In this document: positions 25,543 to 55,223 of the stretch, piece after piece
How positions within the stretch are numbered: position 1 is the first letter of the stretch
How the letters are laid out: each line of letters begins with the position of its first letter
Source: Subtercola sp.
GTDB lineage: Bacteria > Actinomycetota > Actinomycetes > Actinomycetales > Microbacteriaceae
Reading direction: 5' to 3'
Assembly: GCA_025463765.1 (NCBI GenBank)
Contig: JAODBC010000038.1
Location: 1 to 64,000, forward strand
DNA: 64,000 bases
The notes under the pieces: generated by a model
Told to the model about the DNA's origin: nothing
The model's input: only the letters and a program-made list of their open reading frames with translations
Database searches by the model: none
Position numbers and translations under genes: made by a program

Positions 25543-25572
25543 AAGATACACCAATCAATCGTTTGGTAGCAA
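25543..25572 (-). promoter_or_regulatory. Promoter with operator AATCAATCGTTTGGTA between -35 and -10
   Basis: On the minus strand TTGCTA (25567-25572) and TATCTT (25543-25548) are separated by 18 nt. The spacer is filled by the 16-nt palindromic site at 25553-25568. The start codon is 85 nt downstream. This layout is typical of repression by a TetR-family protein. Confidence 0.55.
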
Positions 25573-25598
25573 GACCGTGGCGCTACACGACTGCGCGG

Positions 25599-26435
25599 TC
25601 ATAAGACGGCAGCCGCGAGCTCGTCGAGCGCAGCGATCGCCTCATCGTGAGGCAGCGTCGGGAGCAGAAAAACACTTTCGTCTACCCCCATGTTCCGGTA
25701 GACCTCCGCCTGCTCCGCGCCACCGGTCACGCCGAAGATATAGACCGGAATATGACCGCGGCCCGAGGCCCGTGACCTGTCGCGCAGCTCCTGAAGACGG
25801 TCGGGAAGGTCGGGCATCGCCGGCCAGCCCGGGTTCGGACACCACGCGTCGGCGTACTCCAGAACGCGGTCGAGAACCGTCGGCCCCATGCCGCCCAGCA
25901 AAATAGGCGGATGCGGGCGCTGAAGTGGTTCGGGCCGAAGCGTCGTCGGGGCGATGTCGACGAGATCGCCGTGATACTCAGCGATCTCGTCGCTCCAAAG
26001 ATTCTTCATCGCCAGCACTCGTTCTCGCAACAACTTGGTTCTGGTGCCCGGATTCGTGCCGTGCTGCCGCATCTCCTCGACGTTCCAGCCGGCAGCGATT
26101 CCGAAATCGAAGCGGCCGTTGCTCAGCCGATCGAGCGACGCGACAGACTTCGCAGTGTGAATAGGGTCGCGCTGAACGAGCACGCACATTCCGGTACCGA
26201 TTCGAAGGGTGCTGGTCGCGGCCGCCGCGTAGCTGAGGGCCACGAACGGGTCGTAGACCCGGTAGTACTCGGGTGGCAGTTCGTCGCCGCCCGGGTAGGG
26301 GGTTTCGCGACTGCTCGGGATGTTCGAATGCTCCGTGAAGAACAGCGAACTGAATCCGCGTCGCTCCGCCTCCACGGCGAGCGCGTCGGGGCGAATGCTC
26401 TCGTCGGTAGGAAATGTGACAAGCCCGATCTTCAT
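25599..26435 (-). CDS. Luciferase-like monooxygenase (LLM), probable F420-dependent oxidoreductase
   Basis: A 278-residue TIM-barrel flavin- or F420-using protein. It starts MKIGLVTFPTDESIRPDALAVEAERRGFSSLFFTEHSNIP, with RIGTGMCVLVQRDPIHTAKSVASLDRLSNGRFDFGIAAGWN and GGMGPTVLDRVLEYADAWCPN, the pattern of actinobacterial F420-dependent LLMs. It lies downstream of the SRPBCC gene (60-nt gap) and is likely the last gene of the long acyl-CoA operon. No F420 biosynthesis gene is in view. The substrate is unknown. Confidence 0.88.
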   Translation of the reverse strand: MKIGLVTFPTDESIRPDALAVEAERRGFSSLFFTEHSNIPSSRETPYPGGDELPPEYYRVYDPFVALSYAAAATSTLRIGTGMCVLVQRDPIHTAKSVASLDRLSNGRFDFGIAAGWNVEEMRQHGTNPGTRTKLLRERVLAMKNLWSDEIAEYHGDLVDIAPTTLRPEPLQRPHPPILLGGMGPTVLDRVLEYADAWCPNPGWPAMPDLPDRLQELRDRSRASGRGHIPVYIFGVTGGAEQAEVYRNMGVDESVFLLPTLPHDEAIAALDELAAAVL

Positions 26436-26480
26436 CGTTCAGACCTCTTTCTTGTGGGTGCCGGGGGAGCCGCGCGCGGC

Positions 26481-26504
26481 CAGTCGGTCAGTCGGTCAGT
26501 CGGT
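26481..26504. repeat. Three tandem copies of CAGTCGGT
   Basis: An 8-nt unit is repeated exactly three times across the stop codon of the SRPBCC gene. A unit length not divisible by three means copy-number change would alter the C-terminus. Confidence 0.7.
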
Positions 26505-26909
26505 GGGAGAGTGTCGATCGTCGACTCCGAACAGCTCGGCCAGAACGCTGATCGAGCTGCGCAGCGACGATGCGATCGGCTTCGCCATGGAGTCGGGCGC
26601 CAGATCGGTGCTGTAGACGACCAGGCAACTGGATTCGCCGGTCGGAATGACGTCGACGGTGGCCAGGTGCTCGGTCAGCGGCAGCCCCTGCTTCACGCTG
26701 TACTGCACACGGCGCAGGTCGTGGTCGAGCGTGACGATCTCTTCGACCACCTCACCGCCACGCTTGAGTTCGAGCGTGCGAAGTGGTCCGTTCATCGAAC
26801 TCGAGGCGATACTCGGCGCCCATTTCGTGATCTCGGCCGGAGCACCGACGATCTCCCAGACCACGTCGGCGGGACTCGCCAGCCAGCCGTATTCCCGAAT
26901 CGAAACCAT
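26496..26909 (-). CDS. SRPBCC (START/Bet v1-like) ligand-binding protein
   Basis: 137 residues: VSIREYGWLASPADVVWEIVGAPAEITKWAPSI at the N-terminus and a C-terminal amphipathic helix (SMAKPIASSLRSSISVLAELFG), the helix-grip plan of small polyketide cyclase/dehydrase-like proteins. ATG 26909 follows GGAGGCG and lies 4 nt after the CoA ligase stop, so it belongs to that operon. It probably binds a hydrophobic intermediate or acts as a small cyclase or hydratase. No catalytic residues can be named. Its 3' end runs into a tandem octamer repeat. Confidence 0.78.
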   Translation of the reverse strand: MVSIREYGWLASPADVVWEIVGAPAEITKWAPSIASSSMNGPLRTLELKRGGEVVEEIVTLDHDLRRVQYSVKQGLPLTEHLATVDVIPTGESSCLVVYSTDLAPDSMAKPIASSLRSSISVLAELFGVDDRHSPTD

Positions 26910-26913
26910 AGCC

Positions 26914-28473
26914 TCACGCCTCCGCATGCTGTTGATCGAGCGGAGCTCTGCGGTAGAACTCCCTGAGCTGGAACTTGACCACTTTGCCCGAAGGTGTGCG
27001 GGGCAATTCTTCGACGAAGTCGATCGAAGTCGGGCACTTGTACCCGGCCAGAAGCGACTTGCAATACGAGATCAGCTCCGCTTCGGTCGGCGAAGTACCC
27101 GGCTCGGCGATCACGATCGCCTTGACCGTCTCGATCCACCGCTCCGACGGCACTCCGATCACCGCGCATTCGCGCACGAACGGATGGCTGACCAGAGCGT
27201 TTTCGACTTCGGCCGGGTAGACGTTCTCGCCTCCGCTGACGATCATGTCTTTGACCCGGTCTTGCAGAAAAAGAAAACCCTGCTCGTTCATCGAGGCGGC
27301 GTCGCCGGTTCTCAACCAGTCGCCGCCGACGAGAGTGCGCGCAGTGACGTCGGGCTGCTTCCAGTACCCCGCGAACGTCTGCGGCGAGCGCACCCACATC
27401 TCGCCGACCGCGCCGAGCTCGACGTCGCGCAGCGTCTCGGGGTCGACCAATCGCACCTCGGTTCCCGCGATCGGCCGTCCGCACGATCTGAGCAACGTGA
27501 CGTCGGTCGAGTGATCGATCGGGGCCAACGTGGTGACCAGCGGACACTCGGTCATTCCGAAACCCTGGATGAACGCGCAGTCGAAGGCATCGAGCGCACG
27601 CTGCAGTATCGTCTGCGTCATCGGGCCGCCCCCGTAGTAGAGATAGTTCAGCGACGTGAAGTCCGTGCTCTGAAGCCGCGGGGAGTTCAGGAGCATGAGC
27701 ACCACCGACGGCACCGCGATGAGATTGGTCACCCTGCGGCGGTCGACCGTATCGAGGATCAGATCGGGGTCGACATCGCGAAGAAGGTGAGTCGTCGCTC
27801 CCCGGTAGAGGCCCGCGACGGCCCAGCCGGTTCCTCCGATGTGAAAGAGGGGCATGGTCGACAGACTCACCGAGTCTGGGCTGAAGCGCGCCACCTCTGC
27901 GAGGCTCTCGAGGTACGACATGAAGCTGGCACTCGAGGTCATGACCCCCTTCGGATGCCCGGTGGTGCCCGAGGTGTAGATCTGTAGAACGATCGCTTCG
28001 TCGTCGAGTCGCCCGGTCATCCGTTCACCGACCGCGTACTCGTCGAGCCAGCTCGACCACTTCGTCAGTTCATGATGCTCGGCGAGCGGAACAATGCGCC
28101 GAACCAGAGGCAACGTGTGCGCAATCGGCTCGATCGTGTCGATGTAGTGCTCGTCGACGACCAGCACGACGGCCTGCGAGTCGATCACGACCGCGGCTAT
28201 TTCGGGAAGGGCCAGCCGCCAGTTGATCGGAACCGGCACCGCGCCGACCTTCATCGCGCCGACCAGATACTCGAAGTATTCGACGCACGACTTCGCGAGA
28301 AAAGCGATGCGGTCGCCGCTGTGCACCCCCATCGCCAGCAGTGCCCGAGCGAAACGATCGGAACGATCATCCAGCGTCAGGTAGTCGAGCGACTTGCCGC
28401 CGCATTCGACGGCGATGACGCGCGGGCGCTCGAGAGCATGAGCTCTCAACACTGCGGGAAGATCTACAGGCAT
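26914..28473 (-). CDS. AMP-forming acyl-CoA synthetase (FadD-like)
   Basis: A 519-residue adenylate-forming enzyme that activates a carboxylic acid with ATP and CoA. The P-loop is YTSGTTGHPKGVM, the A5 motif is GFGMTECP, the A7 motif is WLRTGDAASM, the hinge is DRVKDMIVSGGENVYPAEVE, and the catalytic Lys is in RTPSGKVVKFQLRE. Length and motifs fit the FadD family. It sits between an SDR (28 nt upstream) and the SRPBCC gene in the side-chain operon. It is the likely entry point that turns a pathway acid into its CoA ester; FadD3- or FadD17-like use on ring- or sterol-derived acids is only a possibility. Confidence 0.93.
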   Translation of the reverse strand: MPVDLPAVLRAHALERPRVIAVECGGKSLDYLTLDDRSDRFARALLAMGVHSGDRIAFLAKSCVEYFEYLVGAMKVGAVPVPINWRLALPEIAAVVIDSQAVVLVVDEHYIDTIEPIAHTLPLVRRIVPLAEHHELTKWSSWLDEYAVGERMTGRLDDEAIVLQIYTSGTTGHPKGVMTSSASFMSYLESLAEVARFSPDSVSLSTMPLFHIGGTGWAVAGLYRGATTHLLRDVDPDLILDTVDRRRVTNLIAVPSVVLMLLNSPRLQSTDFTSLNYLYYGGGPMTQTILQRALDAFDCAFIQGFGMTECPLVTTLAPIDHSTDVTLLRSCGRPIAGTEVRLVDPETLRDVELGAVGEMWVRSPQTFAGYWKQPDVTARTLVGGDWLRTGDAASMNEQGFLFLQDRVKDMIVSGGENVYPAEVENALVSHPFVRECAVIGVPSERWIETVKAIVIAEPGTSPTEAELISYCKSLLAGYKCPTSIDFVEELPRTPSGKVVKFQLREFYRRAPLDQQHAEA

Positions 28474-28501
28474 GTCATCACTTATTCTTCGGCGAACAGA
28501 G

Positions 28502-29407: not shown

Positions 29408-30582
29408 ACCGTGGCTTCCTTCTTCTGGTTCGAGATCTCGTCGGTACTCGGCACGGTTCCACCCGCCGAGATGTAGTCGGCGATGTCGGATTCACTGAAG
29501 CCGAGCTCCAGCAGAACCGGTCGCGTGTGCTGGCCCAACCGAGGCGCAGGGCAGAGCACCTCGCCGGCGTACTCGTCGAAGTGGATCGGTTGCTTCACCA
29601 CACGCAGGCCGCCAGGGCCATCGATGGTCGTGATCACCCCGCGCGAGATGACTTGTGGGTCACGAGCAACGTCGGCGTCACGGTTGACACGGCCAAAGCC
29701 CACGCCGCGCGCGGCCAACACGTCTTCGATGTCCGAGAGTTCGTGCAGCGCAAAGGCCTGATCGAGACGCGCTCGCAACTCTGCGCTGCGTGCTTCACGG
29801 TCGAGGGTCGGCACGTCAGCGAGGTCTTCGAGACCGATGACCGCACAGAGTTCGCGCCACTGATGATCTTCACCCGTGATGCTGAGTGCTGCCAGTTCAC
29901 GTTGTGCACCGACGCGAAAGACCCCATACCCCGGGTCTTCGGGCGGATAAGGGGCCGCGCCGAGGGAGTTGAGCGAAGACGTGAGCGACGTAGTACGCCA
30001 CGCGACGAGTGCGTCGAGCATCGAGACATCGACATGGGTACCGCGGCCACTCGATGTGCGTGCATAGAGCGCGGTCACGATTCCGATCGCGGCGTACATG
30101 CCCGACGAGATATCTGAGAGCGGCATGGCCGCCGGTTGCGGGTTCTCACCCTGCGATACGAATCCTGCGAGCGCCTGCATCGAGAGGTCGTGCCCTCCGC
30201 GCGAACTCAACGGACCGGTTTGCCCGTAGCTCGAAATCGACGCGTAGATGAGCTCAGGATGTTCGGCGCGAAGCTCTTCCGCACCGAACCCCAAGCGACT
30301 CATCACACCCGGTTTGAACCCCTCCATGAGCACGTCGGCCGTCGCGACGAGTCTACGAAATGCCGCTTTTCCGATGGCGCTCTTCAGATCGAGCACAATC
30401 GAGCGTTTGTTGCGGTTGAGCCCCTCGAAATGCCCGGGAAAGCGTCTCGACGGATCCCCGCCATTCGGGCGCTCGACGAGAATAACGTCGGCTCCCAAGT
30501 CGGCCAGGATCAGCGACGCGAATGGCCCCGGATACTGCTCGGCCAGCGAGACGACGCGCACTCCGGTCAGCGGACCCGTCAT
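29404..30582 (-). CDS. CaiB/BaiF family III CoA-transferase
   Basis: 392 residues, the normal single-subunit length. It has VRVVSLAEQYPGPFASLILADLGADVILVERPNGGDPSRRFPG at the N-terminus, RNKRSIVLDLK, then GRGTHVDVSMLDALVAW with the catalytic Asp, the hallmark of the family. Both ends overlap neighbours by 4 nt (DUF35 gene upstream, SDR downstream). It probably moves CoA onto a pathway acid or recycles CoA from a product. It is unrelated in architecture to the fused two-domain enzyme at the left edge. Confidence 0.92.
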   Translation of the reverse strand: MTGPLTGVRVVSLAEQYPGPFASLILADLGADVILVERPNGGDPSRRFPGHFEGLNRNKRSIVLDLKSAIGKAAFRRLVATADVLMEGFKPGVMSRLGFGAEELRAEHPELIYASISSYGQTGPLSSRGGHDLSMQALAGFVSQGENPQPAAMPLSDISSGMYAAIGIVTALYARTSSGRGTHVDVSMLDALVAWRTTSLTSSLNSLGAAPYPPEDPGYGVFRVGAQRELAALSITGEDHQWRELCAVIGLEDLADVPTLDREARSAELRARLDQAFALHELSDIEDVLAARGVGFGRVNRDADVARDPQVISRGVITTIDGPGGLRVVKQPIHFDEYAGEVLCPAPRLGQHTRPVLLELGFSESDIADYISAGGTVPSTDEISNQKKEATV

Positions 30583-33181: not shown

Positions 33182-33197
33182 AACCAAACGCTTGGTT
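33182..33197. promoter_or_regulatory. Operator-like palindrome AACCAAACGCTTGGTT
   Basis: Perfect 6-nt arms (AACCAA / TTGGTT) around ACGC, the best copy of a 16-nt site seen at eight promoters in 25-55 kb. It lies 27 nt before the short thiolase-like gene and 31 nt beyond the MaoC stop, so an internal promoter of the side-chain operon is likely. Confidence 0.6.
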
Positions 33198-37742: not shown

Positions 37743-37771
37743 ACATTAGCAATCAATCGGTTGGTTGTCCA
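37743..37771 (-). promoter_or_regulatory. Promoter with operator AATCAATCGGTTGGTT in the spacer
   Basis: On the minus strand TGGACA (37766-37771) and TAATGT (37743-37748) are 17 nt apart. The 16-nt site at 37751-37766 fills the spacer and touches the -35. The thiolase start is 89 nt downstream. The rest of the 229-nt gap to the TetR gene holds nothing else that I recognise. Confidence 0.55.
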
Positions 37772-37883
37772 GAAGTGGCTCGAGTGCGTGTCGGGTCGGT
37801 CTTCGGGCGGGTCGAAGACCGGTTCGGCGCGCGCAAAAAACCTCCGACCCGTGCAGGTTCGGAGGCTCAGCGGTTGGTCGCGA

Positions 37884-38516
37884 CTAGCGGCTCGAGTGCT
37901 CCTGCGAACCGAAAATGGCCGACAGTGCCATGTTCGTGTAGTCCCGGGCAATCGATTCAGCCGAATCCGCTCCGTCGGGCTTGAACCAATCGGCGACCCA
38001 GTTCGTTCCGCCGATCACGAACGACGAGATGTGCTTGAGCTGCACGTGCGACTCGATGCCCTCGGCTTTGTACGCCGCGGCGATGAGGTCTCTCAAGAAG
38101 ATGTCGTACTGACGGCGGTGCTTCGAAATGGTCTCCAGGCGCTCGCCGGTGAGGTAACGCCAATCCCGAAAATACAGCGTGGTGCGCTCGATGTTGTTCA
38201 GCGTGACGAGAAGCGATCGCTCGAGATAGGTGCGGAGCTTTTCGACCGGGCCGAGGTCGAGAGCCGCAATTTCGATCATCAGGGCTTCGTTCTCGACGTG
38301 CGCGTCGTCGAAGATTCTGAAAAGCAGGTCTTCTTTCGAACCGATGTAGTGATAGACGCTGCCCTTCAGCACGCCGATGGCGTCGGCCACATCTTGAACG
38401 CTCGCCGCGGAATACCCTTTACGCGAGAAGAGCGCGAGCGCCGCCCGCATCATCTCGGGGTCACGATTTCGCCGCTCGCGAGGCGCACGCTCTACCGTCT
38501 CCGCTGGATCCGCCAC
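37884..38516 (-). CDS. TetR-family regulator (KstR2-like)
   Basis: 210 residues from GTG 38516, which has GGGAGGG 6 nt upstream (in-frame ATG at 38555 lies in likely promoter DNA). The HTH covers residues ~20-65: MMRAALALFSRKGYSAASVQDVADAIGVLKGSVYHYIGSKEDLLF. The sequence GVLKGSVYHYIGSKE recalls KstR2/FadR-type TetR repressors that bind acyl-CoA. It is flanked by acyl-CoA genes on both sides and transcribed the same way. It is the best candidate for binding the 16-nt AAYCAAnCGnTTGGTW sites. Ligand and targets are inferences; the second TetR at 50023 is the alternative. Confidence 0.9.
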   Translation of the reverse strand: MADPAETVERAPRERRNRDPEMMRAALALFSRKGYSAASVQDVADAIGVLKGSVYHYIGSKEDLLFRIFDDAHVENEALMIEIAALDLGPVEKLRTYLERSLLVTLNNIERTTLYFRDWRYLTGERLETISKHRRQYDIFLRDLIAAAYKAEGIESHVQLKHISSFVIGGTNWVADWFKPDGADSAESIARDYTNMALSAIFGSQEHSSR

Positions 38517-38613
38517 GGTAAACCCTCCCGATCTGCTCTTAAGGTATCTTCGCATACGCCCATCGCCGCGCAGGCCCGCGCCCGCACGAGCCGGCGCGAA
38601 GCGTGCTCATCCC

Positions 38614-39711
38614 TCACCGTGTGCGCGACGATCCGAGTCGAGCGAACTCGCTAGCGGCGTCGAGCAATCGCGGTACGCCCTCTTCGAGCGTCGGCCCGAA
38701 CGTGTCGCCGGGGCGCTCTCCGTCGAGCCAGCGGGTGTACATCGCCTCGCAGAAGATCGCCGCCTTCCACAGGGCGAGCGCCTGGTACCACGGCAGATCA
38801 TCCAGACCGACCTTCATCTGGTCTTGGTACAGGCTTGCGAGCTCGTCACGTCGAAGAAAGCCGGGCCCCCGGGTGACCGAGCTGAGCTCCAGCGGCGTCG
38901 ACTCCACTCCCGGCTCGGCGTAGGTAGCGGTCAGATAGCCGAGGTCGGCCAGGGGGTCACCCAGGGTCGCCATCTCCCAGTCGAGAATCGCCGTGACCTC
39001 GGCCGGGGAGTCACGGGCGAACATGAGGTTTCCGGCTCGAAAATCGCCGTGCACGATCGAGGCCCGCTGGCTCACCGGCAGCGTCGACTGCAGCCATTCG
39101 CCCAGGGCGTCGACGGCCGGGAGAGAGCGTCTGGAGGTGACACCCCACAGTGACGAGAAGCGCTGCACCTGACGGGCGAGATACCCGTCTGGTCGACCGA
39201 ACTTCGCCAGATCGCCCGTGTCGACGTCGACACTGTGCAACTCGACCAACGAGTTCACGATCGCAACGCTCGTGGCTCGTCGCTGCTGCAGCGAGTCGAG
39301 TGCCGGCGGAACCGTATCGGTGATGACCTCCCCGTCGAGAAACGACATCACATAGAACGGAACTCCGAGAATCGACTCGTCGTCGCTCAGAGCGAGAATC
39401 TCGGGCACCGGTATTCCCTGCGCCGCGACGAGCCGCTGAATCGTCGCCTCGCGCACCATGTCATGCGTCGAGCGCGGCAGGGGCGGGCGAGGCCCGCGAC
39501 GAAGGATGAACGTGTCGTCGCCCCGGTCGATGCGGTAAGTGATGTTCGATTGACCGTCTCCGATGCGGTGCCAGTCGATCGGGCCGGCGCCGAGTCCGCG
39601 CGAATCCAGAAACTCGGTCACGGCGTCCACGATGAGCAAGGGGGGTGAGGTCAGTTGTGCCGCCTCGACACTCGTCGCTACGACCTCGATGCCATCGGGT
39701 GTCGCCGTCAT
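38614..39711 (-). CDS. Aminoglycoside-phosphotransferase-fold kinase (acyl-CoA metabolism type)
   Basis: 365 residues. The catalytic loop is VHGDFRAGNLMF (HxDxxxxN) and the metal-binding segment is ILDWEMATLGDPLADLGYL. The N-lobe has GQSNITYRID and DTFILRRGPRPP. These are the marks of the APH/ACAD10-type kinases, not of drug resistance. It overlaps the adjacent ACAD10/11-like gene by 4 nt. In levulinate catabolism (LvaA) and in mammalian ACAD10/11, such kinases phosphorylate the hydroxyl of a 4-hydroxyacyl-CoA. That role here is an inference from the gene pair. Confidence 0.88.
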   Translation of the reverse strand: MTATPDGIEVVATSVEAAQLTSPPLLIVDAVTEFLDSRGLGAGPIDWHRIGDGQSNITYRIDRGDDTFILRRGPRPPLPRSTHDMVREATIQRLVAAQGIPVPEILALSDDESILGVPFYVMSFLDGEVITDTVPPALDSLQQRRATSVAIVNSLVELHSVDVDTGDLAKFGRPDGYLARQVQRFSSLWGVTSRRSLPAVDALGEWLQSTLPVSQRASIVHGDFRAGNLMFARDSPAEVTAILDWEMATLGDPLADLGYLTATYAEPGVESTPLELSSVTRGPGFLRRDELASLYQDQMKVGLDDLPWYQALALWKAAIFCEAMYTRWLDGERPGDTFGPTLEEGVPRLLDAASEFARLGSSRTR

Positions 39712-40940
39712 CGTGCAGCCTCGTCGTCGTCGTGAATCGTCGCCAAGTACGGTTCTCCGCCGTCGACCGCAGCCTTTCGTCGAGCGGATGCACGACGCGA
39801 AATGGCCCACTTGTGGGTCTCGTTCGCGCCGTCGTAGATGCGGAACGGGCGCACTTCGTTGAGGTACGAGGCCAGCGGCAGGTCATCCGACACGCCGTCG
39901 CCGCCGCACAGCTGCATGGCGCGGTCGATGACCCGGTAGACAGCCTCAGAGCAGTAGACCTTCGCCACAGACGACATCGCCGACCCGGCCTTCGGATCGG
40001 AGGCAAGCAACTGGGCGGTCTTCGAGATGATCGCGTCGGCCGTCTCGATATCGATCACACTCTGCGCGATCAGCTCTTGGGCGATGCCCAGTTCGTCGAT
40101 GGCCGAGCCGAAGATCTGCCGCCGCGAGGTGCGGTCTAGGGCGATGTCGAGTGCCCGGCGGGCGAGCCCCAGCCAGCGCATGCAATGCGTCAGCCGGGCG
40201 GGGCCGAGTCGAACTTGCGCATAGCGGAACCCCAAGCCCACCTCCCCCAAAACGGCGTCGTCGTCGACACTGCAGTTCTCAAAATGAACGTGTGGATGCC
40301 CCCCGCCAATCGCCCGGTCGATGGTGTGGATGTGCCGACCCAACCGAACACCGGGGTTAGAGGCGTCGACCAAGAACATCGTCGCGCCCGCCTTCGAACC
40401 CGCTTCGGCCGGAGTGCGAGCCATCACGATGAAAAACCCGGCACCATCGGCACCGCTGATGAATCTCTTGTGCCCTGAAATGCTCCACCCGCCGTCGACG
40501 CGCTCGGCGCTCGTCGTCAGCGCGTCGGGGTCGGAACCTGCGCCCGGGTGCGGCTCCGTCATCGCGAACGACGAACGTATCTCACCCGCCGCCAGCGGAG
40601 TCAGAAAGCGAGCCTTCTGGGCATCGGTCGCGATGAGGTTCAGCATGTGCATGTTGCCCTCGTCTGGCGCCATGCAATTCAGAACAGACGCACCGATCGG
40701 CGAATAGCCGGCCTCCTGAAAGATAGGCGACCAGAACTCGATCTCGAGTCCCTGGCCACCGAAGGTCTTCGGAACGTGAGGCGCGAAGACGCCCGCCGCC
40801 TTGGCCTGTGCTTGCAGTTCGTGTTTGCGGGCATCGGTCAAGCGCTCACCCGGTGCGGGCTCTGCCGCAATGACCACGTCACGAATGAAGGTGTGCGTGC
40901 GTGCCCTCAGGGCCTCGACTTCGGCTGGCAATGAGGTCAT
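39708..40940 (-). CDS. ACAD10/11-like acyl-CoA dehydrogenase
   Basis: 410 residues: FAMTEPHPGAGSDPDALTT for FAD contact, ISGHKRFISGADGAGFFIVMARTP, SRRQIFGSAIDELGIAQELIA, and at the catalytic segment RIYDGANETHKWAI with Asp370 where medium-chain ACADs have Glu. That Asp pattern and the coupled APH-fold kinase identify the ACAD10/11 group. Members act on 4-phosphoacyl-CoA to remove the phosphate and give a product that re-enters beta-oxidation. The neighbouring SDR and Liv importer are in the same strand unit. Confidence 0.88.
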   Translation of the reverse strand: MTSLPAEVEALRARTHTFIRDVVIAAEPAPGERLTDARKHELQAQAKAAGVFAPHVPKTFGGQGLEIEFWSPIFQEAGYSPIGASVLNCMAPDEGNMHMLNLIATDAQKARFLTPLAAGEIRSSFAMTEPHPGAGSDPDALTTSAERVDGGWSISGHKRFISGADGAGFFIVMARTPAEAGSKAGATMFLVDASNPGVRLGRHIHTIDRAIGGGHPHVHFENCSVDDDAVLGEVGLGFRYAQVRLGPARLTHCMRWLGLARRALDIALDRTSRRQIFGSAIDELGIAQELIAQSVIDIETADAIISKTAQLLASDPKAGSAMSSVAKVYCSEAVYRVIDRAMQLCGGDGVSDDLPLASYLNEVRPFRIYDGANETHKWAISRRASARRKAAVDGGEPYLATIHDDDEAAR

Positions 40941-41763: not shown

Positions 41764-42498
41764 CTACTGCTCCTTCTTATTGATGTCGCTGAATCCCATG
41801 TGCCGCTCGAGCAGCACGTCGAGTTCGGTGCCGGAATCCGCTTGGCCCACGATCTCGCCTCGAATGATGACGTACCCCCGGTCGATCACGCGGTGCAACG
41901 ACCGGATCGAGGGCTCCGCCATCACCACTGCAACGTCTCGTGCCGTGAGCTCGCGAACGACCTCGATGATCTGCGACACGATCAGTGGGGCGAGCCCTGT
42001 CATCGTCTCGTCGAGCAGCAGCACCTTCGGTTCGCCCATCAACGCGCGCGCCACGACGAGCATCTGCTGTTCACCGCCGCTCAGCACCCCGGCCAGCGAC
42101 TTCGACCGTGTTCTCAGAACGGGAAATCGATCGAGCGCATGATCGACAACCGATCGTGACAGCCCGAGCATGTCTGCCATGATCTGCAGGTTCTCTCGCA
42201 CCGTCATGCTGGCGAACAGCTGCCGCCCCTGTGGCACGATCGCTATCTGGCGGGCGCGTTTTCGAGCCGCGAGAGCCGACACGTCTGCGCCGTCGAGGGC
42301 GATGCCTCCGGATGCGCGGATGCTGCCGTAGATCGCGAGCAATAGGCTGCTCTTGCCGGCGCCGTTGGGCCCGGCGATCGCCGTGACTTTTCCCGGCGGC
42401 GCGACGAATGAGACGGCGCTCAGAGCCTGAGCCTTGCCGTACTGCACGCTCAGCTCGCTGACTCCGAGCCCGGCGCCGACCAGCTCTGTCGCGGTCAC
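41764..42498 (-). CDS. livF: Branched-chain-amino-acid-type ABC importer ATPase (LivF-like)
   Basis: A 244-residue ABC ATPase: Walker A GPNGAGKSSLL, signature LSGGEQQMLVVARAL, Walker B VLLLDETMTGL, and Q-loop IVPQGRQLF. The short form without the C-terminal BCA_ABC_TP tail is LivF. GTG 42498 overlaps the LivG stop. Five adjacent genes encode a whole HAAT-type importer. In a catabolic island such systems often carry organic acids or aromatic and isoprenoid acids instead of leucine, so the gene name gives the family, not the substrate. Confidence 0.92.
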   Translation of the reverse strand: MTATELVGAGLGVSELSVQYGKAQALSAVSFVAPPGKVTAIAGPNGAGKSSLLLAIYGSIRASGGIALDGADVSALAARKRARQIAIVPQGRQLFASMTVRENLQIMADMLGLSRSVVDHALDRFPVLRTRSKSLAGVLSGGEQQMLVVARALMGEPKVLLLDETMTGLAPLIVSQIIEVVRELTARDVAVVMAEPSIRSLHRVIDRGYVIIRGEIVGQADSGTELDVLLERHMGFSDINKKEQ

Positions 42499-43262
42499 GA
42501 CTGCTCCTCACCGAAGTAGACGAGCCTCATCTGCGGGCTGGCGAGGCACTCGAGCGGGTCACCATCGAACACGACTCGGCCCTGCTGCATCAGCATTATC
42601 CTGTCTACGATTTCGCTCACCAAGTCGACGTTGTGATCGATGAGGATGACCGCATGTCCTCTGTTCTTTACGATTCGGATCGCCTCGGCGATTCCGGCGA
42701 TTCCGGCCGAATCTGCGCCGGCGAACGGTTCATCCAGTATGAGAACGAGCGGTTTCTGGCCGAGCGCACGCACTACCTCGACGAGACGCTGTTCGCCCAG
42801 CGACAGGTCTTTCACCGGCCGATCCAGCCCCTCGAGGCCGATCTCTGCGGCGAGCGCTTCGACCTCGCCGTGGCCCGCCGAATTGCTGCCGTGCAGCGCG
42901 CCGACGAAAAAGCCTCTGATCATACTGCCGACGCTCGCGTGGCTGATGCCCGAGATTCCGACGATGAGGTTCTCGCGAACCGTGAGCGAGCTGGCGAGCA
43001 GTGGATGCTGGTAGGTGCGCGCCAAGCCGGCGCGAGCGCGCTTCGACGGGGGCCCTGTGAGGGCGGCGCCGTTCAAGTGCATCGAACCGCCGTTGGCGAC
43101 CTGAGTGCCGTAGATCAGATCGACCAGGGTCGTCTTGCCTGCTCCGTTCGGGCCGACGAGCCCCAAGACCTCTCCCGCCGCCAGAGTCAGATCGACGTCT
43201 GTGACGGCTCTCATCCCGCCATACTGCTTCGTGAGGCCGCGGCCGACGAGTAGCTCGGTCAT
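42495..43262 (-). CDS. livG: Branched-chain-amino-acid-type ABC importer ATPase (LivG-like)
   Basis: A 255-residue ABC ATPase: Walker A GPNGAGKTTLV, Q-loop RTYQHPLL, signature LSLGEQRLVEVVRAL with a Leu in place of a Gly, Walker B LILDEPFAGAD, and IDHNVDLV. The C-terminal LASPQMRLVYFGEE is the LivG-specific tail. ATG 43262 overlaps the LivM stop by 4 nt. It pairs with LivF to power the LivHM channel. Transport substrate unknown. Confidence 0.92.
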   Translation of the reverse strand: MTELLVGRGLTKQYGGMRAVTDVDLTLAAGEVLGLVGPNGAGKTTLVDLIYGTQVANGGSMHLNGAALTGPPSKRARAGLARTYQHPLLASSLTVRENLIVGISGISHASVGSMIRGFFVGALHGSNSAGHGEVEALAAEIGLEGLDRPVKDLSLGEQRLVEVVRALGQKPLVLILDEPFAGADSAGIAGIAEAIRIVKNRGHAVILIDHNVDLVSEIVDRIMLMQQGRVVFDGDPLECLASPQMRLVYFGEEQS

Positions 43263-44233
43263 GGTGTTCTCCTCGAAAGCGCCCGCGCACGGCCGAACAG
43301 CGCACGGAGGTTGGCGATGTAGCCCAATACGCCCTGCGGCGCGAGCACCAGAATGGCCAGCACGGCGATCGACAGAACGAACATGCCGTTACCGCTGAAG
43401 ATCGACGAATTGACGGTGAGCTCGACGACTATCGCGGCACCGACCACCGCCCCCCACGGGGTTGCGAGCCCGCCGATGAGCGGCATGAACAACACGAGGA
43501 AGACGATCTGAACGGTGAAGGTCTCTGGTGTGATTCCGCGCACCGACGTCGCGAACGTCGCGCCACCCAGCGATGCGATCGCGGCCCCGATCGCCAGAAT
43601 CACGATGGTGATGCGCGGAACTCTGGTACCCGATCCTTCGACGGCGACGGGCGTTTCGCCCAGTGCCCGAACGAGAATGCCGAAGTCGCTGCGCCGCACC
43701 CGATCGATCGCGAAGGCGATCACGAGTACGACGATGACCCCGCCGATCGTGAGCACGAGAGCAGACGGCTGCCAACCGAAGATCGACAGCGGCGGTACTC
43801 CGCCGATGCCGTTCGGGCCGCCCAGGGTGTCAGAGCTGATGAGCCACGTCTGAAACGCCGTAGCGAAGAGCAGAGTGACCGCAGCCAGGTGGTCAGAACT
43901 CAGGCGCGACGTAACGAGACCGAGAACGATGGCCAAGAGGGCGGCGATGATCGGCCCGACGATCCAGCCGACCCACCCAGGCAATCCGAGGCTCGCGGCG
44001 ACGTAGGCCGTTCCATACGCGCCGATGGCGGCGTAGGCGCCATACGCGAGAGAAAGGGATCCGCCCCAGGCAAGCGGCATGTACATGCCGAGCGCGATCA
44101 GCGAATAACTGACCCCCAAGGTGATTACTCCGAGCCGATAGTCGGAGTTGCCGCCCCAGATGAACAGCGCCAGCGCGAGAACGGTCGCGACACCGAGCGA
44201 ACCCCAGCCCTGAGAACGTCTGACGCGTGTCAT
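43259..44233 (-). CDS. livM: ABC importer permease (LivM-like)
   Basis: 324 residues, largely hydrophobic, with about 9-10 membrane segments. GVITLGVSYSLIALGMYMPLAWGGSLSLAYGAYAAIGAY near the N-terminus and GGLATPWGAVVGAAIVV near the C-terminus are the LivM patterns. ATG 44233 overlaps the LivH stop by 4 nt. Its in-frame upstream extension lies within livH. It forms the membrane channel with LivH. Confidence 0.92.
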   Translation of the reverse strand: MTRVRRSQGWGSLGVATVLALALFIWGGNSDYRLGVITLGVSYSLIALGMYMPLAWGGSLSLAYGAYAAIGAYGTAYVAASLGLPGWVGWIVGPIIAALLAIVLGLVTSRLSSDHLAAVTLLFATAFQTWLISSDTLGGPNGIGGVPPLSIFGWQPSALVLTIGGVIVVLVIAFAIDRVRRSDFGILVRALGETPVAVEGSGTRVPRITIVILAIGAAIASLGGATFATSVRGITPETFTVQIVFLVLFMPLIGGLATPWGAVVGAAIVVELTVNSSIFSGNGMFVLSIAVLAILVLAPQGVLGYIANLRALFGRARALSRRTP

Positions 44234-45105
44234 ATTCTCACCTGCCTGGTGATCAAACCGCGCGGTCTGAACGCGAAGAAGATGAGGGCGATCGCCAAGA
44301 TCGCGTAGTCGGAGAACTGGCCCGACAGATAAAACGGGACGAACACCTGCAGCAGGGCGAGAATCAAGCCACCCAGAAGCGGCGCCCACCAGGAACCCGA
44401 GCCGCCGATGACGAGGGCGAGAAAGCCCAGCAGCGCCCAGCCGAGGCCGCGATCCCACGAGACCCCGCCCTTTGCCGCATACGAGATTCCGGCGAAGGCG
44501 GCGATGACGCCGGCGATCACGAACGCCGTGATGCGCACACGAGAGGTGGGCAGGCCGAGCAGCTGCGCGGCGGGTCGGTTGTCACCGACAGCCCTGAGCA
44601 TCCGCCCGGTTCCCGTCACACGCACCCACACCGAGACGCCGACGAACGACACGAGAGCGAGGGCCATGGTGACGATCATCGGGCCCGAAACGTAGGCTCC
44701 CGCGATCTGCAGGGGATCGATCACCAGCAGCTGCTGGCCGGCGAGCTGTTTGCGGCCGAACAACAGCCCCGCCACCTGGGTGATGGCGAAAAGCATCGCG
44801 ATCACCGCCACCAGGGCCGGCAGCCTGGCACCGCCCGACCGCCGCTGGATCGGCCTGACCACCCCGACCTCCGTAAAAGCGGCGAGCAGACCGGCGAGAA
44901 CGAGGGCCGCGATGACGGCCAGCCAGACCGGCAGGTGCATCGACTTGGCGAATGACGCGGCCGCGAGGCCGCCGATCATCGCATACGCGCCGATCGCGAA
45001 GTTGAAGAAGCCGGCACCCTCGAGAATGAGCATGTAGGCGAGACCGAGCAGGCCGAAGAAGCAGGCCTGCTCGACAACAGAGAACCAAAGCTGAACGTGA
45101 TCCAC
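44230..45105 (-). CDS. livH: ABC importer permease (LivH-like)
   Basis: A 291-residue membrane protein: GLLGLAYMLILEGAGFFNFAIGAYAMIGG at the N-terminus, VGDNRPAAQLLGLPTSRVRITAFVIAGVIAAFAG in the cytoplasmic loop and FAFRPRGLI near the end, the LivH pattern. The start is a GTG with no clear RBS 22 nt after the LivK stop, so the start is less certain than for its neighbours. It forms the channel with LivM. Confidence 0.9.
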   Translation of the reverse strand: MDHVQLWFSVVEQACFFGLLGLAYMLILEGAGFFNFAIGAYAMIGGLAAASFAKSMHLPVWLAVIAALVLAGLLAAFTEVGVVRPIQRRSGGARLPALVAVIAMLFAITQVAGLLFGRKQLAGQQLLVIDPLQIAGAYVSGPMIVTMALALVSFVGVSVWVRVTGTGRMLRAVGDNRPAAQLLGLPTSRVRITAFVIAGVIAAFAGISYAAKGGVSWDRGLGWALLGFLALVIGGSGSWWAPLLGGLILALLQVFVPFYLSGQFSDYAILAIALIFFAFRPRGLITRQVRI

Positions 45106-45126
45106 GAGTGGTGGTCGATCCGTTCG

Positions 45127-46347
45127 TCAGCAGGCCGGCTGGAAGGTGGACCATTTTCCAGCGGGCGTATTGTCAGCGCCGAACGTGAACAGAGCCAGAC
45201 CGCAGAGGCTGTCTGCGCCGACGTGCTTGGTCGGCGTGAACGACATTCGGAATCCCTCCTGGCCGACATGCGGCTGGTAGCCGGTCGTGGCATCCATCGC
45301 GGCTTTGATGGCGGCTGGATCATCGGTGCCGCCCGCCGTCTTGATCGCGTCGAGCAGAATCATCAGCCCGTCATACCCTTGTGCGGCGAAATAGCTCATG
45401 TTGAAATCCGAGCCGAGCGCTGCAGTGAGTTTCGACTGCAGGTCGACCGTTCGCGGGTTGGTCAGGTCGAGCTGCTGCATGAAGACCAGATTGTTCAGCG
45501 AACCCGGCGTGGCAAGTGCCCACGCGTCACTCTGGCTGCCGAACGAGCCCTGGCTGAACCGCGGCACATCGGGCATCGCCTGGTACAGCGCCGAGTGCGC
45601 GAGCGCCTCGAACTGACCGCCGACGCTCTGCACGAAGATCGCATCGGGATTGGAGTCTTTGATGCGAGTCGCCTGCGCGACGAGGTCGGTCGAGGCCACC
45701 GGCGCGACTTCGTCATCGACGATCGTCACGCACTTGCCGAAGGCGTCTTTGAGAGGCCCGGCCAGCGACTTGATCGCGGGCGAATCGTCTTGAAGGTACG
45801 CGATCTTTTTGATTCCGGCCTTCTCGAAGGCCCCGCAGAAGACGCTGCCGTAATCGGTGACCGGGTTGACCAGCGTGTAGACGTAATCGCCATCGGGCTG
45901 ATCGGTGAGCGTCGGCAGCACGGCCACCGGAGCTATGGTGACGACCTTCGCCTGCTCGATGATCGGCTTTACTTGCGCCACGACCGAAGCTGTCGAAAGC
46001 CCGAGGATGCCCACGGCGCCCTGCTCGATCAGCGACTGGTAGACGGCAGGCCCCTTGGCCGGATCGCTCTCGGTGCTCTCTTCGATGAGTTTCACCGGTC
46101 GGCCGAGGATCCCGCCGTTGGCGTTGACCTCGTCGACGCCCGCGACGACGGCCGCGCCGGCGAGGGGATTGTACGAGCTGCCCGGGCCGGTCTTGTCGAG
46201 ATCCATTCCGATCAGAATCGGGGCTCCTGTCGGGGCGGCTGCCGTCGAGGTCGGCAGAACGCGTCCGCCCCCACCGTCGTCGGCGCATCCGCTCAGGGCG
46301 AGAGCGAGGGCCACCGCAGTGGCCGCGAAGATTGCTGGTTTTTTCAT
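45127..46347 (-). CDS. livK: ABC importer substrate-binding lipoprotein (LivK-like)
   Basis: A 406-residue lipoprotein with signal peptide MKKPAIFAATAVALALALSG and lipid-anchor Cys21 (lipobox LSGC). The body is a type I periplasmic-binding fold (ILIGMDLDKTGPGSSYNPLAGAAVVAGVDEVNANGGILGRPVKL ... DSKSL). GAGGAG lies 7 nt before ATG 46347. It is anchored on the outer face of the membrane and delivers ligand to LivHM. The gene follows the luciferase-like gene by 56 nt and is followed by livHMGF. Ligand unknown; a pathway acid is more likely than leucine in this setting. Confidence 0.92.
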   Translation of the reverse strand: MKKPAIFAATAVALALALSGCADDGGGGRVLPTSTAAAPTGAPILIGMDLDKTGPGSSYNPLAGAAVVAGVDEVNANGGILGRPVKLIEESTESDPAKGPAVYQSLIEQGAVGILGLSTASVVAQVKPIIEQAKVVTIAPVAVLPTLTDQPDGDYVYTLVNPVTDYGSVFCGAFEKAGIKKIAYLQDDSPAIKSLAGPLKDAFGKCVTIVDDEVAPVASTDLVAQATRIKDSNPDAIFVQSVGGQFEALAHSALYQAMPDVPRFSQGSFGSQSDAWALATPGSLNNLVFMQQLDLTNPRTVDLQSKLTAALGSDFNMSYFAAQGYDGLMILLDAIKTAGGTDDPAAIKAAMDATTGYQPHVGQEGFRMSFTPTKHVGADSLCGLALFTFGADNTPAGKWSTFQPAC

Positions 46348-46403
46348 GGATTGACTCCTCATTGAGCGTGCTGTGTGCTGCTGTGGTGGCCGTGCAGTGA
46401 GTG

Positions 46404-47540: not shown

Positions 47541-47564
47541 AGTCAACCAACTGATCGTTTGGAT
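47541..47564 (-). promoter_or_regulatory. Weak operator-like site AACTGATCGTTTGGAT next to TTGACT
   Basis: At 47549-47564 the right half (CGTTTGG) fits the 16-nt site but the left half is degenerate. On the minus strand TTGACT (47541-47546) follows at once and may be the -35 for the LLM/livK operon. Confidence 0.35.
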
Positions 47565-47613
47565 AGGATCCTACGACACTACAGGCTCAGCCCTCAAGAC
47601 ATGTGCGCTAATC

Positions 47614-47633
47614 AACCATCCAATTGGTTGACA
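47614..47633 (+). promoter_or_regulatory. Operator-like site AACCATCCAATTGGTT overlapping TTGACA
   Basis: The 16-nt site at 47614-47629 runs into TTGACA (47628-47633), a perfect plus-strand -35 for the LLM/crotonase operon. A protein bound here would cover the -35. Confidence 0.5.
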
Positions 47634-49963: not shown

Positions 49964-50022
49964 CGTGGTGCCCGTTGCCACCACGGATAGGCTTACCGTG
50001 AGCATTTCGTGAGGAGCCGGCG

Positions 50023-50739
50023 GTGACACATCTCGATTCGGGTCGCAAGCGACGCGAGCGCGGCTCGATCACCACCGAAGAGATCGTCGAGGGTGCTTTT
50101 GTGGTCGCGATACGCGATTCGATCGACGACCTGAGCGTTCCCGAGGTAGCCCGGCAGCTCGACGTCGGGGTCACCAGCATCTACTGGCACTTTCGCAAGA
50201 AGGAAGACCTGCTGCGGGCGATGAGCGACGAGGCGGTTCGAGCAGTGCACCAGCTACTGCCGTCGACCAACACCCATCTGGGCTGGCGCGCATTTCTCGA
50301 CATGTACTACACGAGCATGCGCTCGATCTATCGGGCGAACGACGTCTGGGCCGACCTGGTGCTCGTTCGGCTGAGCCAGTACTCACTCAGCTCGACCCAC
50401 GTGACCTACGAAGCGATCGAACGGCTGGTGGCATTTCTGGTGGCGGCCGGATTCACGCCCCTCAACGCCTGGCGACTCACCGGCACGCTGACGACCTACA
50501 CTCAGGGCATCATTGTCGCCGAGCGAACCCAGCGCAAACAGAACGTAGCCACTATCGACGAGCGACAGGCGCGACTTCTGCTGCCGCAGTCGATGCCCCT
50601 GCTGTCAGAGCTGTACGAGAACCATTCGATCTCGCTGACCATGGCCTCAGACGACGACTTCAGCTACGGCCTGAACACTCTGCTGTCGGCCTTCGAAGGC
50701 GTTCTGCGCTCCGACAGGGCGCAGAAGCAAACCGACTGA
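50023..50739 (+). CDS. TetR-family transcriptional regulator
   Basis: 238 residues from GTG 50023 with GAGGAG 9 nt upstream. The HTH covers residues ~15-65: TTEEIVEGAFVVAIRDSIDDLSVPEVARQLDVGVTSIYWHFRKKEDLLRAMSDEA. The ligand domain follows. It is the last gene of the plus-strand unit and converges on the cytochrome b gene. It might control its own operon or share control of the island. It lacks the GVLKGS-type recognition helix of the other TetR. The ligand is unknown. Confidence 0.9.
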   Translation: MTHLDSGRKRRERGSITTEEIVEGAFVVAIRDSIDDLSVPEVARQLDVGVTSIYWHFRKKEDLLRAMSDEAVRAVHQLLPSTNTHLGWRAFLDMYYTSMRSIYRANDVWADLVLVRLSQYSLSSTHVTYEAIERLVAFLVAAGFTPLNAWRLTGTLTTYTQGIIVAERTQRKQNVATIDERQARLLLPQSMPLLSELYENHSISLTMASDDDFSYGLNTLLSAFEGVLRSDRAQKQTD

Positions 50740-50747
50740 ACGCGTGT

Positions 50748-50767
50748 GGCCGGTCTGTCGACCGGGC
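50748..50767. terminator. Short GC hairpin between convergent genes
   Basis: CCGGT and ACCGG (50750-50754 / 50761-50765) form a small stem with a 6-nt loop in the 28-nt gap between the TetR and cytochrome b genes. It is weak, and only a possible terminator. Confidence 0.35.
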
Positions 50768-52665: not shown

Positions 52666-52678
52666 GGTTCTCTCTCGA

Positions 52679-53446: not shown

Positions 53447-53516
53447 GGTGCGGACTCCTCGGGCTTCTGCGCAGCACGCCGGTTCGTGCCGTGGAATTCT
53501 TCGTCGAATTCATTAC

Positions 53517-53541
53517 GGTAAAGCATACAGTATGAATTACC
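53517..53541. promoter_or_regulatory. Full 25-nt palindrome of the GGTAAAGTATAC motif before etfB
   Basis: GGTAAAGCATAC (53517-53528), a central A, and GTATGAATTACC (53530-53541) are inverted arms matching at 10 of 12 positions. It lies 71 nt before etfB and 54 nt beyond the flavin reductase stop. It is the only full two-arm copy of the motif that I found; the other copies are single half-sites. Confidence 0.55.
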
Positions 53542-53594
53542 GCTCTCCCCCAGCGCGAGCTTCGACCGACTGGTCTCCAGACCCCTGGTCCCCG

Positions 53595-54143
53595 TCAGAT
53601 GGCGCTGTGATCACCGAGAGCGTGCCAGGTGCGGTTGTGGTAGACGAGCGGGGCGAAGGTGCTCTCGGCCTCGTGGCTGGTGTTCACGACCTGCAGGGCC
53701 TGCACCACCAGTACCGTCGCGGTTCCGGCGTCGATGCGCTGAACGACGCGCGCTCGGATCCACCGGTCGACGCCGGCGAAAAGGGGCTCACCCGTATCGA
53801 GGCGACTCCAGAGGGAGGTGTCGGCGAAGCGGTCGATGCCGCTGGTCGCGCACAGTCGAGCGATCTCGAGATTCGAGACGCCGAGCAGGTGCACGATGAC
53901 GGTGTCGGCCTGCAGCAGCGTGGGTGTGCTCGACGAGAGCGCAGAGAGCGAGAAGACCAGCAGCGGCGGATTGACACTCACCGAGATGACACTCGTGGCC
54001 GTCAGACCGACGGGCCCGTCGCCGATGTCGGCCGTAACGACCGCGACGCCCGAGGGGTGATCGCGAAACACTCCAGTGAAGTCTTGGATCTCTACTTGCG
54101 TCTCGACAACTAGTCGATTCTGCGGTGCAGGTGTGGCATCCAT
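53595..54143 (-). CDS. Flavin reductase-like protein (FMN-binding split barrel; HsaB-like)
   Basis: 182 residues: FRDHPSGVAVVTADIGDGPVGLTATSVISVSVNPPLLVFSLSALSSSTPTLLQADTVIVHLLG spans residues ~26-90, the split-barrel flavin-binding pattern of HsaB, HpaC and related reductases. It supplies reduced flavin to a partner monooxygenase. The HsaA-like partner is encoded 28 kb away at 24259 with the same operator-like site upstream. ATG 54143 lies 59 nt from its site at 54207. It ends 148 nt before etfB. Confidence 0.9.
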   Translation of the reverse strand: MDATPAPQNRLVVETQVEIQDFTGVFRDHPSGVAVVTADIGDGPVGLTATSVISVSVNPPLLVFSLSALSSSTPTLLQADTVIVHLLGVSNLEIARLCATSGIDRFADTSLWSRLDTGEPLFAGVDRWIRARVVQRIDAGTATVLVVQALQVVNTSHEAESTFAPLVYHNRTWHALGDHSAI

Positions 54144-54206
54144 TCGTAAATTCCCATCGTCGCGAGCTACTGAAAATCAGCATCTCGGAACAGGGACGCG
54201 CTTGTC

Positions 54207-54222
54207 AACCAATTGGTCGGTA
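54207..54222. promoter_or_regulatory. Operator-like site AACCAATTGGTCGGTA overlapping TTGACA
   Basis: The core ACCAATTGGT is a perfect palindrome inside the 16-nt frame. On the minus strand TTGACA (54203-54208) overlaps it and is a -35 candidate for the flavin reductase gene 60 nt downstream. Confidence 0.5.
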
Positions 54223-54262
54223 GTTTACGGAACTCACAGACAGCGAGTCGGCAAGTGGATGA

Positions 54263-55075
54263 TCAGAAAGTGAGCCAGCCGGCATCGACGGGTAATTCGA
54301 CCCCCGTCACGTATCTCGCGTCGCTGGAGAGCAGCCACAGCACGGCGTCCGAGATAGCTTGCGGCGGCATCAGCTCGATCTTCAGTCGGTTGCGAACGGT
54401 GTTGTGGTAGTCGCCGCGCAGGCTGAGGGCCTTTTCGAGGGTTCCCCCGCCGGTCACCATCTGGGTGTCGACCCCGCCGGGGCAGACAGCGTTGACCCGA
54501 ACGTCGAACTCGCCGAGTTCCCAAGCCAGCACCTTCATCAGATTGAGCACCCCCGCCTTCGATGCGGAGTAGGCGACCCCCGACGGCTGCGGCCTCAGTC
54601 CATTGATCGATGAGGTCAGAACGATCGATCCGCCTCGGCCGCCCTGCAGGATCTTCGGGATGAACGCTTTTGTCACCTTCCAGGCGCCCGTGAGCAGCAC
54701 GTCGAGACTCTCTTGCCAGGCCGCTTCGTCGAGTTCCCACGAGTTGGCCGCGACCGTCCACATTCCGTGATTCACGGCGAGCAGATCGATTCGCCCGAAC
54801 TCCGTCATCGCCTGGTCGGCGAATGCCTGCAGGCCGGCGAGATCGCGCGCATCGACCGTCGCCGCCAGACAGCGTCGATCGTATGACTCGACGATCGCGG
54901 CCGTTTCGCGCAGGTCGCTCTCTGTCGCTCCGGGCGTCAGAGCGGTCGAGAGAGTGTCGCAGAGGTCGAAGATCACGACATCGGCGCCTTCCCGCGCGAG
55001 CGTCGCCGCGTGCGATCGGCCTTGGCCCCGGGCTGCGCCCGAGACGACAGCGACCTTGCCTTCTAGCTTTCCCAC
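54263..55075 (-). CDS. SDR of the mycofactocin-associated type
   Basis: 270 residues: SGAARGQGRSHAATLAREGADVVIFDL, an insertion TESDLRETAAIVESYDRRCLAATVDARD, Ser in VLTSSINGLRP, Tyr/Lys in YSASK, and C-terminal LPVDAG. The GQGRSHA motif with the DLRET insertion is characteristic of SDRs whose NAD(H) is held tightly and recycled by mycofactocin. No mycofactocin biosynthesis genes are in the window. It diverges from the Rbs-like importer, with two operator-like sites between. It probably oxidises an imported alcohol. Confidence 0.9.
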   Translation of the reverse strand: MGKLEGKVAVVSGAARGQGRSHAATLAREGADVVIFDLCDTLSTALTPGATESDLRETAAIVESYDRRCLAATVDARDLAGLQAFADQAMTEFGRIDLLAVNHGMWTVAANSWELDEAAWQESLDVLLTGAWKVTKAFIPKILQGGRGGSIVLTSSINGLRPQPSGVAYSASKAGVLNLMKVLAWELGEFDVRVNAVCPGGVDTQMVTGGGTLEKALSLRGDYHNTVRNRLKIELMPPQAISDAVLWLLSSDARYVTGVELPVDAGWLTF

Positions 55076-55148
55076 AACTGTTCCTCTTTCTGAGCCGCCC
55101 GTGCCGATTCGCCTTGCTGACGGTAACGATAGTCACGTCGCCGGCCAA

Positions 55149-55164
55149 AACCAATCGTTTGATT
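55149..55164. promoter_or_regulatory. Operator-like site AACCAATCGTTTGATT
   Basis: 14 of 16 positions fit the AAYCAAnCGnTTGGTW site. It lies 73 nt before the mycofactocin-type SDR and 39 nt from a second copy (55204), in the divergent promoter shared with the importer. Confidence 0.55.
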
Positions 55165-55194
55165 GGCAAAGAATCCAACATCTCGCGAGAATCC

Positions 55195-55223
55195 TTGACT
55201 TCCAACCAGACGCTTGGTAGAAA
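55195..55223 (+). promoter_or_regulatory. Promoter TTGACT-17-TAGAAA with operator in spacer
   Basis: TTGACT (55195-55200) and TAGAAA (55218-55223) are exactly 17 nt apart. The 16-nt site AACCAGACGCTTGGTA occupies 55204-55219, filling the spacer and touching the -10. It reads toward the importer, whose start is 64 nt downstream. This is the clearest repressor-type promoter of the set. Confidence 0.65.

Follow-up and report, generated by a model that had tools for sequence, protein, structure and literature searches.

The regulon of the TetR-type regulator KstR2 includes fadD3, ipdAB, ipdC and echA20. For this regulator the operator motif AnCAAGnnCTTGnT (PMC3068626) and HIP-CoA as ligand (PMC11667970) have been reported. 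For a second TetR-type regulator, PfmR (TTHB023) of Thermus thermophilus, PMC7022988 quotes TACCGACCGNTNGGTN, a site that earlier work had predicted; the selection consensus given there differs partly from this site, and the mapped sites lie at fatty-acid biosynthesis genes. A 4-hydroxyacid route that involves ACAD10 and ACAD11 has also been described (PMC12440821, PMC11342911).

Within 64,000 nt of DNA from Subtercola sp. (the window), an initial annotation had proposed that eight copies of a 16-nt operator define a TetR regulon. This is the best reading of our data, considering the intergenic position of the sites, their conservation and their company with one TetR gene. The eight sites are very likely operators of a single TetR repressor encoded at 37884-38555 (TetR1), which would block the promoters and be released by a pathway intermediate. 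A TetR repressor of acyl-CoA catabolism is a regulator of an ordinary kind; the regulon itself was not found in a limited search of the literature.

Eight Putative Operator Sites Lie between Genes

A search of the window with AAYCAANCGNTTGGTW, allowing up to three mismatches, gave 20 strand-wise matches versus a mean of 5.08 in shuffled sequences, and none of 100 shuffles reached 20. All eight proposed sites were recovered at their positions and with the mismatches that the annotation had implied: on the better strand none at 25553, 33182, 37751 and 55149, one at 55204, two at 47614 and 54207, and three at 47549, the site that had been called weak. The sole further separate match in the window, at 30397 (three mismatches), is located fully within a gene. 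The eight sites contain no coding base, in agreement with their proposed location in intergenic promoters; with 7.6% of the window non-coding (about 92% coding, based on 61 chosen ORFs), this corresponds to 0.076^8 = 1.2e-9. The sites are above chance and lie between genes. They are given here together with neighbouring features and with the number of positions identical in G001, a genome of the same genus.

25553-25568, no strand: operator 1, before the acyl-CoA-dehydrogenase-like (HsaA-like) flavin enzyme 24259-25458, in the -35/-10 spacer; G001 14/16
33182-33197, no strand: operator 2, 27 bp before operon 33155-25599 (thiolase-like proteins, OB-fold, CaiB, SDR, FadD, cyclase, LLM); G001 14/16
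37751-37766, no strand: operator 3, before the thiolase/ACAD/ACAD/MaoC/MaoC operon 37654-33228, in the spacer; G001 16/16
37828-37872, minus strand: probable terminator (hairpin and T-run), 3′ of the TetR1 gene, between TetR1 and the thiolase operon
37884-38555, minus strand: TetR1, the probable repressor for these sites (start codon provisional)
38614-39810, minus strand: APH-family kinase, like the kinase part of ACAD11 (8v3v, 9.8e-44)
39708-40940, minus strand: acyl-CoA dehydrogenase of the Liv/kinase operon
41764-46362, minus strand: Liv-type ABC importer (two ATPases, two permeases, binding protein)
47545-47564, no strand: operator 4 (weak, two registers), before the LLM/Liv/kinase/TetR1 operon; 47549 register G001 14/16
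47614-47629, no strand: operator 5, before the LLM/crotonase operon, arm into TTGACA; G001 16/16
54207-54222, no strand: operator 6, before flavin reductase 53595-54143, arm into TTGACA; G001 16/16
55149-55164, no strand: operator 7, before the mycofactocin-coupled SDR 54263-55075; SDR and site without counterpart in the G001 cluster
55204-55219, no strand: operator 8, before the Rbs-type importer 55287-59022, in the TTGACT-17-TAGAAA spacer; G001 16/16

A matrix from 13 sites of relatives (G002, G017, G410, G189, a Frankiales MAG and L041, with G001 left out) gave scores of 17.0 to 25.7 for the eight window sites, while the next place reached 10.9. The best score in 200 first-order Markov windows was 11.8 on average and 18.1 at most, so that 55204, the weakest of the eight with 17.0, is not above the whole null. 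Since the 13 sites had been chosen with the window matrix, this ranking is a consistency check.

The weak site is better described as an element of 20 bp (47545-47564) in which two registers overlap. The registers are offset by four bases (47545/47549) in the window and also in G001. We considered them as sites for two dimers and do not claim this, because the motif itself repeats AAYC-AAYC-GRTT-GRTT, which explains much of the overlap.

The host genome (G000; 4.3 Mb, 118 contigs) has seven places with at most one mismatch, five of them inside the window, and 21 places with at most two, seven of them inside; the pattern gave 32 strand-wise matches versus 11 for the reversed control. The initial annotation had suggested counting coding against promoter hits, and the two were not hit at an equal rate: all seven window places with at most two mismatches are intergenic, versus 4 of 13 outside, where a mechanical gene call puts the other nine in genes (13 of the 14 outside places came with a locus, and no gene was called at L010, one of the four intergenic ones). 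Both outside places with one mismatch are within called genes.

Promoters around the Sites

Three sites had been placed between -35 and -10 hexamers, and for each of them a pair with a spacer of 17 or 18 bp can be named: TTGCTA-18-TATCTT at 25553, TGGACA-17-TAATGT at 37751, and TTGACT-17-TAGAAA at 55204. The observed hexamer score was matched by 11, 8 and 3 of 200 shuffled flanks, respectively. Three others had been said to overlap a -35, and at three sites an arm runs into the hexamer (TTGACA at 47614 and 54207, TTGGCA at 33182); here 1, 2 and 36 of 200 shuffled flanks, in this order, matched the score. For 55149 it was reached by 15 of 200. No promoter is nameable on the Liv-operon side of 47549, where 178 of 200 shuffled flanks were as good (137 in G001). 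A dyad that lies in the spacer or extends into the -35 fits steric repression.

G001 has the same hexamers or near variants at the corresponding positions, with a weak LLM promoter (43/200 shuffles). In the Frankiales MAG, the Rbs and thiolase promoters hold the dyad in a 17-bp spacer, and the hexamer pair is unconvincing at two of the four sites, 6100 (164/200 shuffles) and the FadD side of 12242 (65/200).

Conservation of the Sites in Relatives

The cluster is present in G001 with a TetR1 orthologue of 87% identity. Seven of the eight operators are kept, those at 37751, 47614, 54207 and 55204 at 16/16 positions and those at 25553, 33182 and 47549 at 14/16. The spacers around them carry gaps and substitutions; at 33182 the spacer is also well conserved. 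For the SDR and operator 55149 there is no counterpart in the G001 cluster.

The Frankiales MAG (G438; JAODND010000091.1; 3.9 Mb) encodes a TetR1 orthologue with 59% identity. It also has orthologous genes, arranged in another order than in the window, for the Rbs importer, LLM, FadD, cyclase, thiolase, ACADs, MaoCs, thiolase-like proteins, OB-fold protein and CaiB. Sites precede the Rbs operon, the thiolase operon, and an amidohydrolase gene and a P450 gene, and one more lies between FadD and cyclase; all three places of this genome with at most one mismatch are inside the cluster. The MAG stretches searched gave no match for the HsaA-like enzyme, the flavin reductase, the Liv importer or the kinase. 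The P450 gene of the MAG is downstream of site L040:6100; the window also has a P450 gene (9409-10806), and no operator was found before it.

The sites of the relatives were located with the window-derived matrix or consensus, and the search was therefore not blind. The G001 footprints and the genome-wide clustering, for which the consensus of the initial annotation was used, are not fitted to the matrix. When genes were called mechanically, 15 of 34 relatives' sites fell in non-coding DNA (2.4 expected), a low count because the procedure takes the longest start; with 200 bases of start error allowed, 29 of 34 are non-coding versus 8.3 expected. Of the five remaining sites, at least one (L030:16293) was assigned to a gene wrongly, according to tblastn.

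The Operator Follows TetR1 across Genomes

In the 11 scanned genomes with TetR1 homologues, 49 places have at most one mismatch; 32 of them share a contig with the homologue and are within 61 kb of it. Nine of the 11 genomes have at least one such near place. Near places among all places amounted to 5/7 in G000, 4/4 in G001, 3/5 in G002, 0/3 in G017, 3/3 in G438, 4/8 in G410, 2/4 in G189, 0/3 in G245, 1/2 in G690, 2/2 in G596 (one 53 kb off) and 8/8 in G680. The 11 genomes were not under a single cut-off: G000, G001, G002, G017, G410, G189 and G245 were admitted by protein at E<=1e-30, G690, G596 and G680 by a profile of alignment A2 at E<=1e-55, and the MAG by its 59% identity. The scans used two slightly differing patterns, with A or W as first base. 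Eight genomes of the same genus without a homologue at E<=1e-20 (G003-G005, G007-G011) had four places in all. With sites near TetR1 homologues and rare without one, the operator follows the regulator.

G017 and G245 have homologues and no place with at most one mismatch near them. In G017, two-mismatch sites occur near both TetR1-homologue genes; at the 3.6-kb locus of G245 (L038) nothing scored above 11.4, and a weak upstream dyad with a GG centre is found at 2205 with that score. The G245 homologue has His for Tyr in the HTH (SLHHY). Outside the tally are G006, G067 and G085 with weaker homologues (E 1e-22 to 1e-24), of which G006 has one place, away from its homologue, and the others none. 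The tally also leaves aside three genomes without a pattern scan, namely G242 and those that carry L041 and L042.

Looser TetR1 homologues (29-43% identity) were found in 5 of 398 family genomes besides the host and G001 (E<=1e-30); the homologue of G002, which belongs to the genus, matched with 1.1e-41. The profile of alignment A2 (E<=1e-55) matched 3 of 396 phylum genomes besides the host. Judged by these sequences, the same switch recurs in other actinobacteria. A stretch of 61 kb in G680 (C1:1626442-1687665, L065-L068) contains two TetR1-like genes next to each other (1626655, 1627370) and eight sites that resemble the operator; the part compared (1612000-1647999) has only loose gene homology to the window.

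TetR1 as the Probable Regulator

By its sequence, TetR1 is a regulator of the TetR family. In a PDB search the window protein aligned full-length with solved TetR proteins, with 3dcf first (3.9e-22), 3vpr, presumably Thermus PfmR, second (6.5e-20), and 2ibd, which we take to be rhodococcal KstR2, fifth (3.5e-14); chains named KstR2 were eighth and ninth (4w1u eighth, 9.1e-13). Among these chains, KstR2 is not the closest relative of TetR1. PF00440 (TetR_N) is above the cut-off in the G001 orthologue (2224140), and among the 49 matches to PF00440 in G001 (E<=1e-6) this orthologue is the only one in C1:2190000-2250000. Since TetR1 is the only TetR gene found in the cluster of G001 that keeps the sites, it is very probably their regulator. 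On the MAG contig with TetR1 there is only one other TetR_N match (E<=1e-6), 36 kb off.

The initial annotation had named two TetR proteins as candidates, of which only that at 37884-38555 is supported. It is quite improbable that the operators belong to the other one (50023-50739) or to both. This gene sits downstream in the operon behind operator 5, but in the syntenic cluster of G001, where the sites are conserved, TetR1 is the sole TetR_N match (E<=1e-6). The protein is 19% identical to TetR1, and its best NCBIfam match, tetracycline repressor TetR, is below the cut-off (66.5 vs 265 bits).

We give the same low probability to a regulator of another family or locus that binds the sites, with TetR1 as a mere neighbour. 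Two of the seven host places with at most one mismatch do fall outside the window, but these are the two in called genes, and across genomes the sites cluster by TetR1 homologues and are rare in same-genus genomes that lack one.

Marginally less probable again is a KstR2 regulon for steroid ring C/D catabolism, which would account for the resemblance of the dyad to AnCAAGnnCTTGnT (PMC3068626) and for one ACAD with IpdE2 as best NCBIfam match, below the cut-off (172 vs 450 bits). The MAG argues against it, since it holds both systems apart: sequence similarity identifies its TetR at C21:38903 as KstR2 (4.8e-42 to 2ibd, 1.6e-40 to 4w97), which adjoins sites AGCAAGCGCTTGGT on contig C21, while contig C39 carries the TetR1 orthologue with its sites. 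The identity between TetR1 and this KstR2 is 26%, so that the KstR2-likeness claimed for the gene at 37884 is only loose. Exact RGCAAGCGCTTGSY, a narrow form of the motif, occurs at four places in the MAG, three of them on C21, and at none in G000, G001 and G002; in these last three genomes, the reversed control outnumbers the pattern at one mismatch. The outer arm bases of the tallied sites fit AnCAAGnnCTTGnT, but the G required by KstR2 at base 7 is present in 0/28 and the C at base 10 in 4/28. In the MAG, the KstR2 gene has FadD-like and ACAD-like neighbours and sites of its own (L056; G438:C21:36000-42000). Finally, chance or repeats as the origin of the sites can practically be dismissed, as the shuffles, the G001 footprints and the absence of coding bases count against them and nothing was found in their favour.

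The gene for TetR1, our preferred regulator, has no operator directly before it. The hairpin at 37828-37872 has -22 kcal/mol and a z of -2.65, with 1/200 shuffles equally stable; it is absent from the list of a simple terminator scan. From this terminator-like hairpin and the lack of an own site we infer that TetR1 is probably co-transcribed with the Liv/kinase operon, by read-through from 47545-47629. Its gene appears to be the last of this operon, so the sites at 47545-47629 would also give autoregulation.

Proposed Target Genes and Mechanism

The enzymes of the regulon include FadD, a CaiB transferase, an ACAD pair, MaoC-type dehydratases, thiolases and an OB-fold partner; further members are the ACAD11-like kinase with a further ACAD, three LLM enzymes, the flavin reductase and two importers. 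SDR 54263-55075 is a mycofactocin-coupled SDR, with TIGR03971 above the cut-off (310 vs 300 bits). A PDB search gave no match for the HsaA-like enzyme (E<=1e-20) or the Rbs binding protein (E<=1e-10), and the HsaA label therefore rests on the initial annotation and PF08028. At 38614-40940 the ACAD11-like kinase gene overlaps the acyl-CoA dehydrogenase gene, an arrangement that suggests a hydroxyacyl-CoA step. The pathway would be compatible with a terpenoid- or steroid-type substrate, a cyclic carboxylate or ketone that is opened to a hydroxy acid.

In the proposed mechanism, TetR1 dimers would bind the ACCAA-n4-TTGGT dyads and, in or against the core promoter, block RNA polymerase. A pathway intermediate, most likely an acyl-CoA thioester, would release TetR1; such a ligand is suggested by the enzymes and by the KstR2 precedent (HIP-CoA, PMC11667970). 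The regulated set would consist of the Liv- and Rbs-type importers and a side-chain/ring beta-oxidation pathway, which would include the three luciferase-like enzymes, the flavin enzyme and the flavin reductase. Most likely, one repressor gene in the cluster turns on a carbon-source pathway as a unit.

Eight transcription units, which include two importers and about thirty pathway genes, would in this way be tied to one testable regulator, and TetR1 could therefore serve as a sensor for finding the substrate. The operator motif also finds similar islands in other genomes.

Comparison with Known Systems

The route of ACAD10/ACAD11 is similar to the locus in that the kinase 38614-39810 matches the ACAD11 kinase part and its gene overlaps an acyl-CoA dehydrogenase gene; it differs in that kinase and dehydrogenase are separate genes here.

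PfmR is likewise a TetR regulator, and its predicted site TACCGACCGNTNGGTN, as quoted in PMC7022988, is close to AACCAAnCGnTTGGTW. The arms of the tallied sites are similar to those of TACCGACCGNTNGGTN, but base 5 is A, not G, in 24/28. PfmR belongs to another phylum, and the mapped sites in PMC7022988 are at fatty-acid biosynthesis genes.

In the HTH, the TetR1 group has mostly VLKGS (at least 90% of 13 aligned rows have Lys 64), and the MAG KstR2 has ILSGS. We lean slightly towards the view that TetR1 represents a TetR subfamily of actinobacteria that is new to the literature and uses an operator code of its own (ACCAA-n4-TTGGT, in most cases with central CG), which would mark whole catabolic islands, e.g., the 61 kb of G680 with 8/8 sites. 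Specificity would be set by the HTH (mostly VLKGS-x-YHY, as against ILSGS-L-YHH in KstR2), and the arms would double as part of the -35. If this is true, the pattern alone could map uncharacterised catabolic regulons.

The KstR2 of mycobacteria and rhodococci shares with TetR1 the regulator family, a dyad with CAA/TTG arms (motif AnCAAGnnCTTGnT as given in PMC3068626) and the large catabolic cluster. In contrast to KstR2, TetR1 has sites with ACCAA/TTGGT arms, a free base 7 and a centre that is usually CG, and the two regulators, at 26% identity, are both encoded in one MAG.
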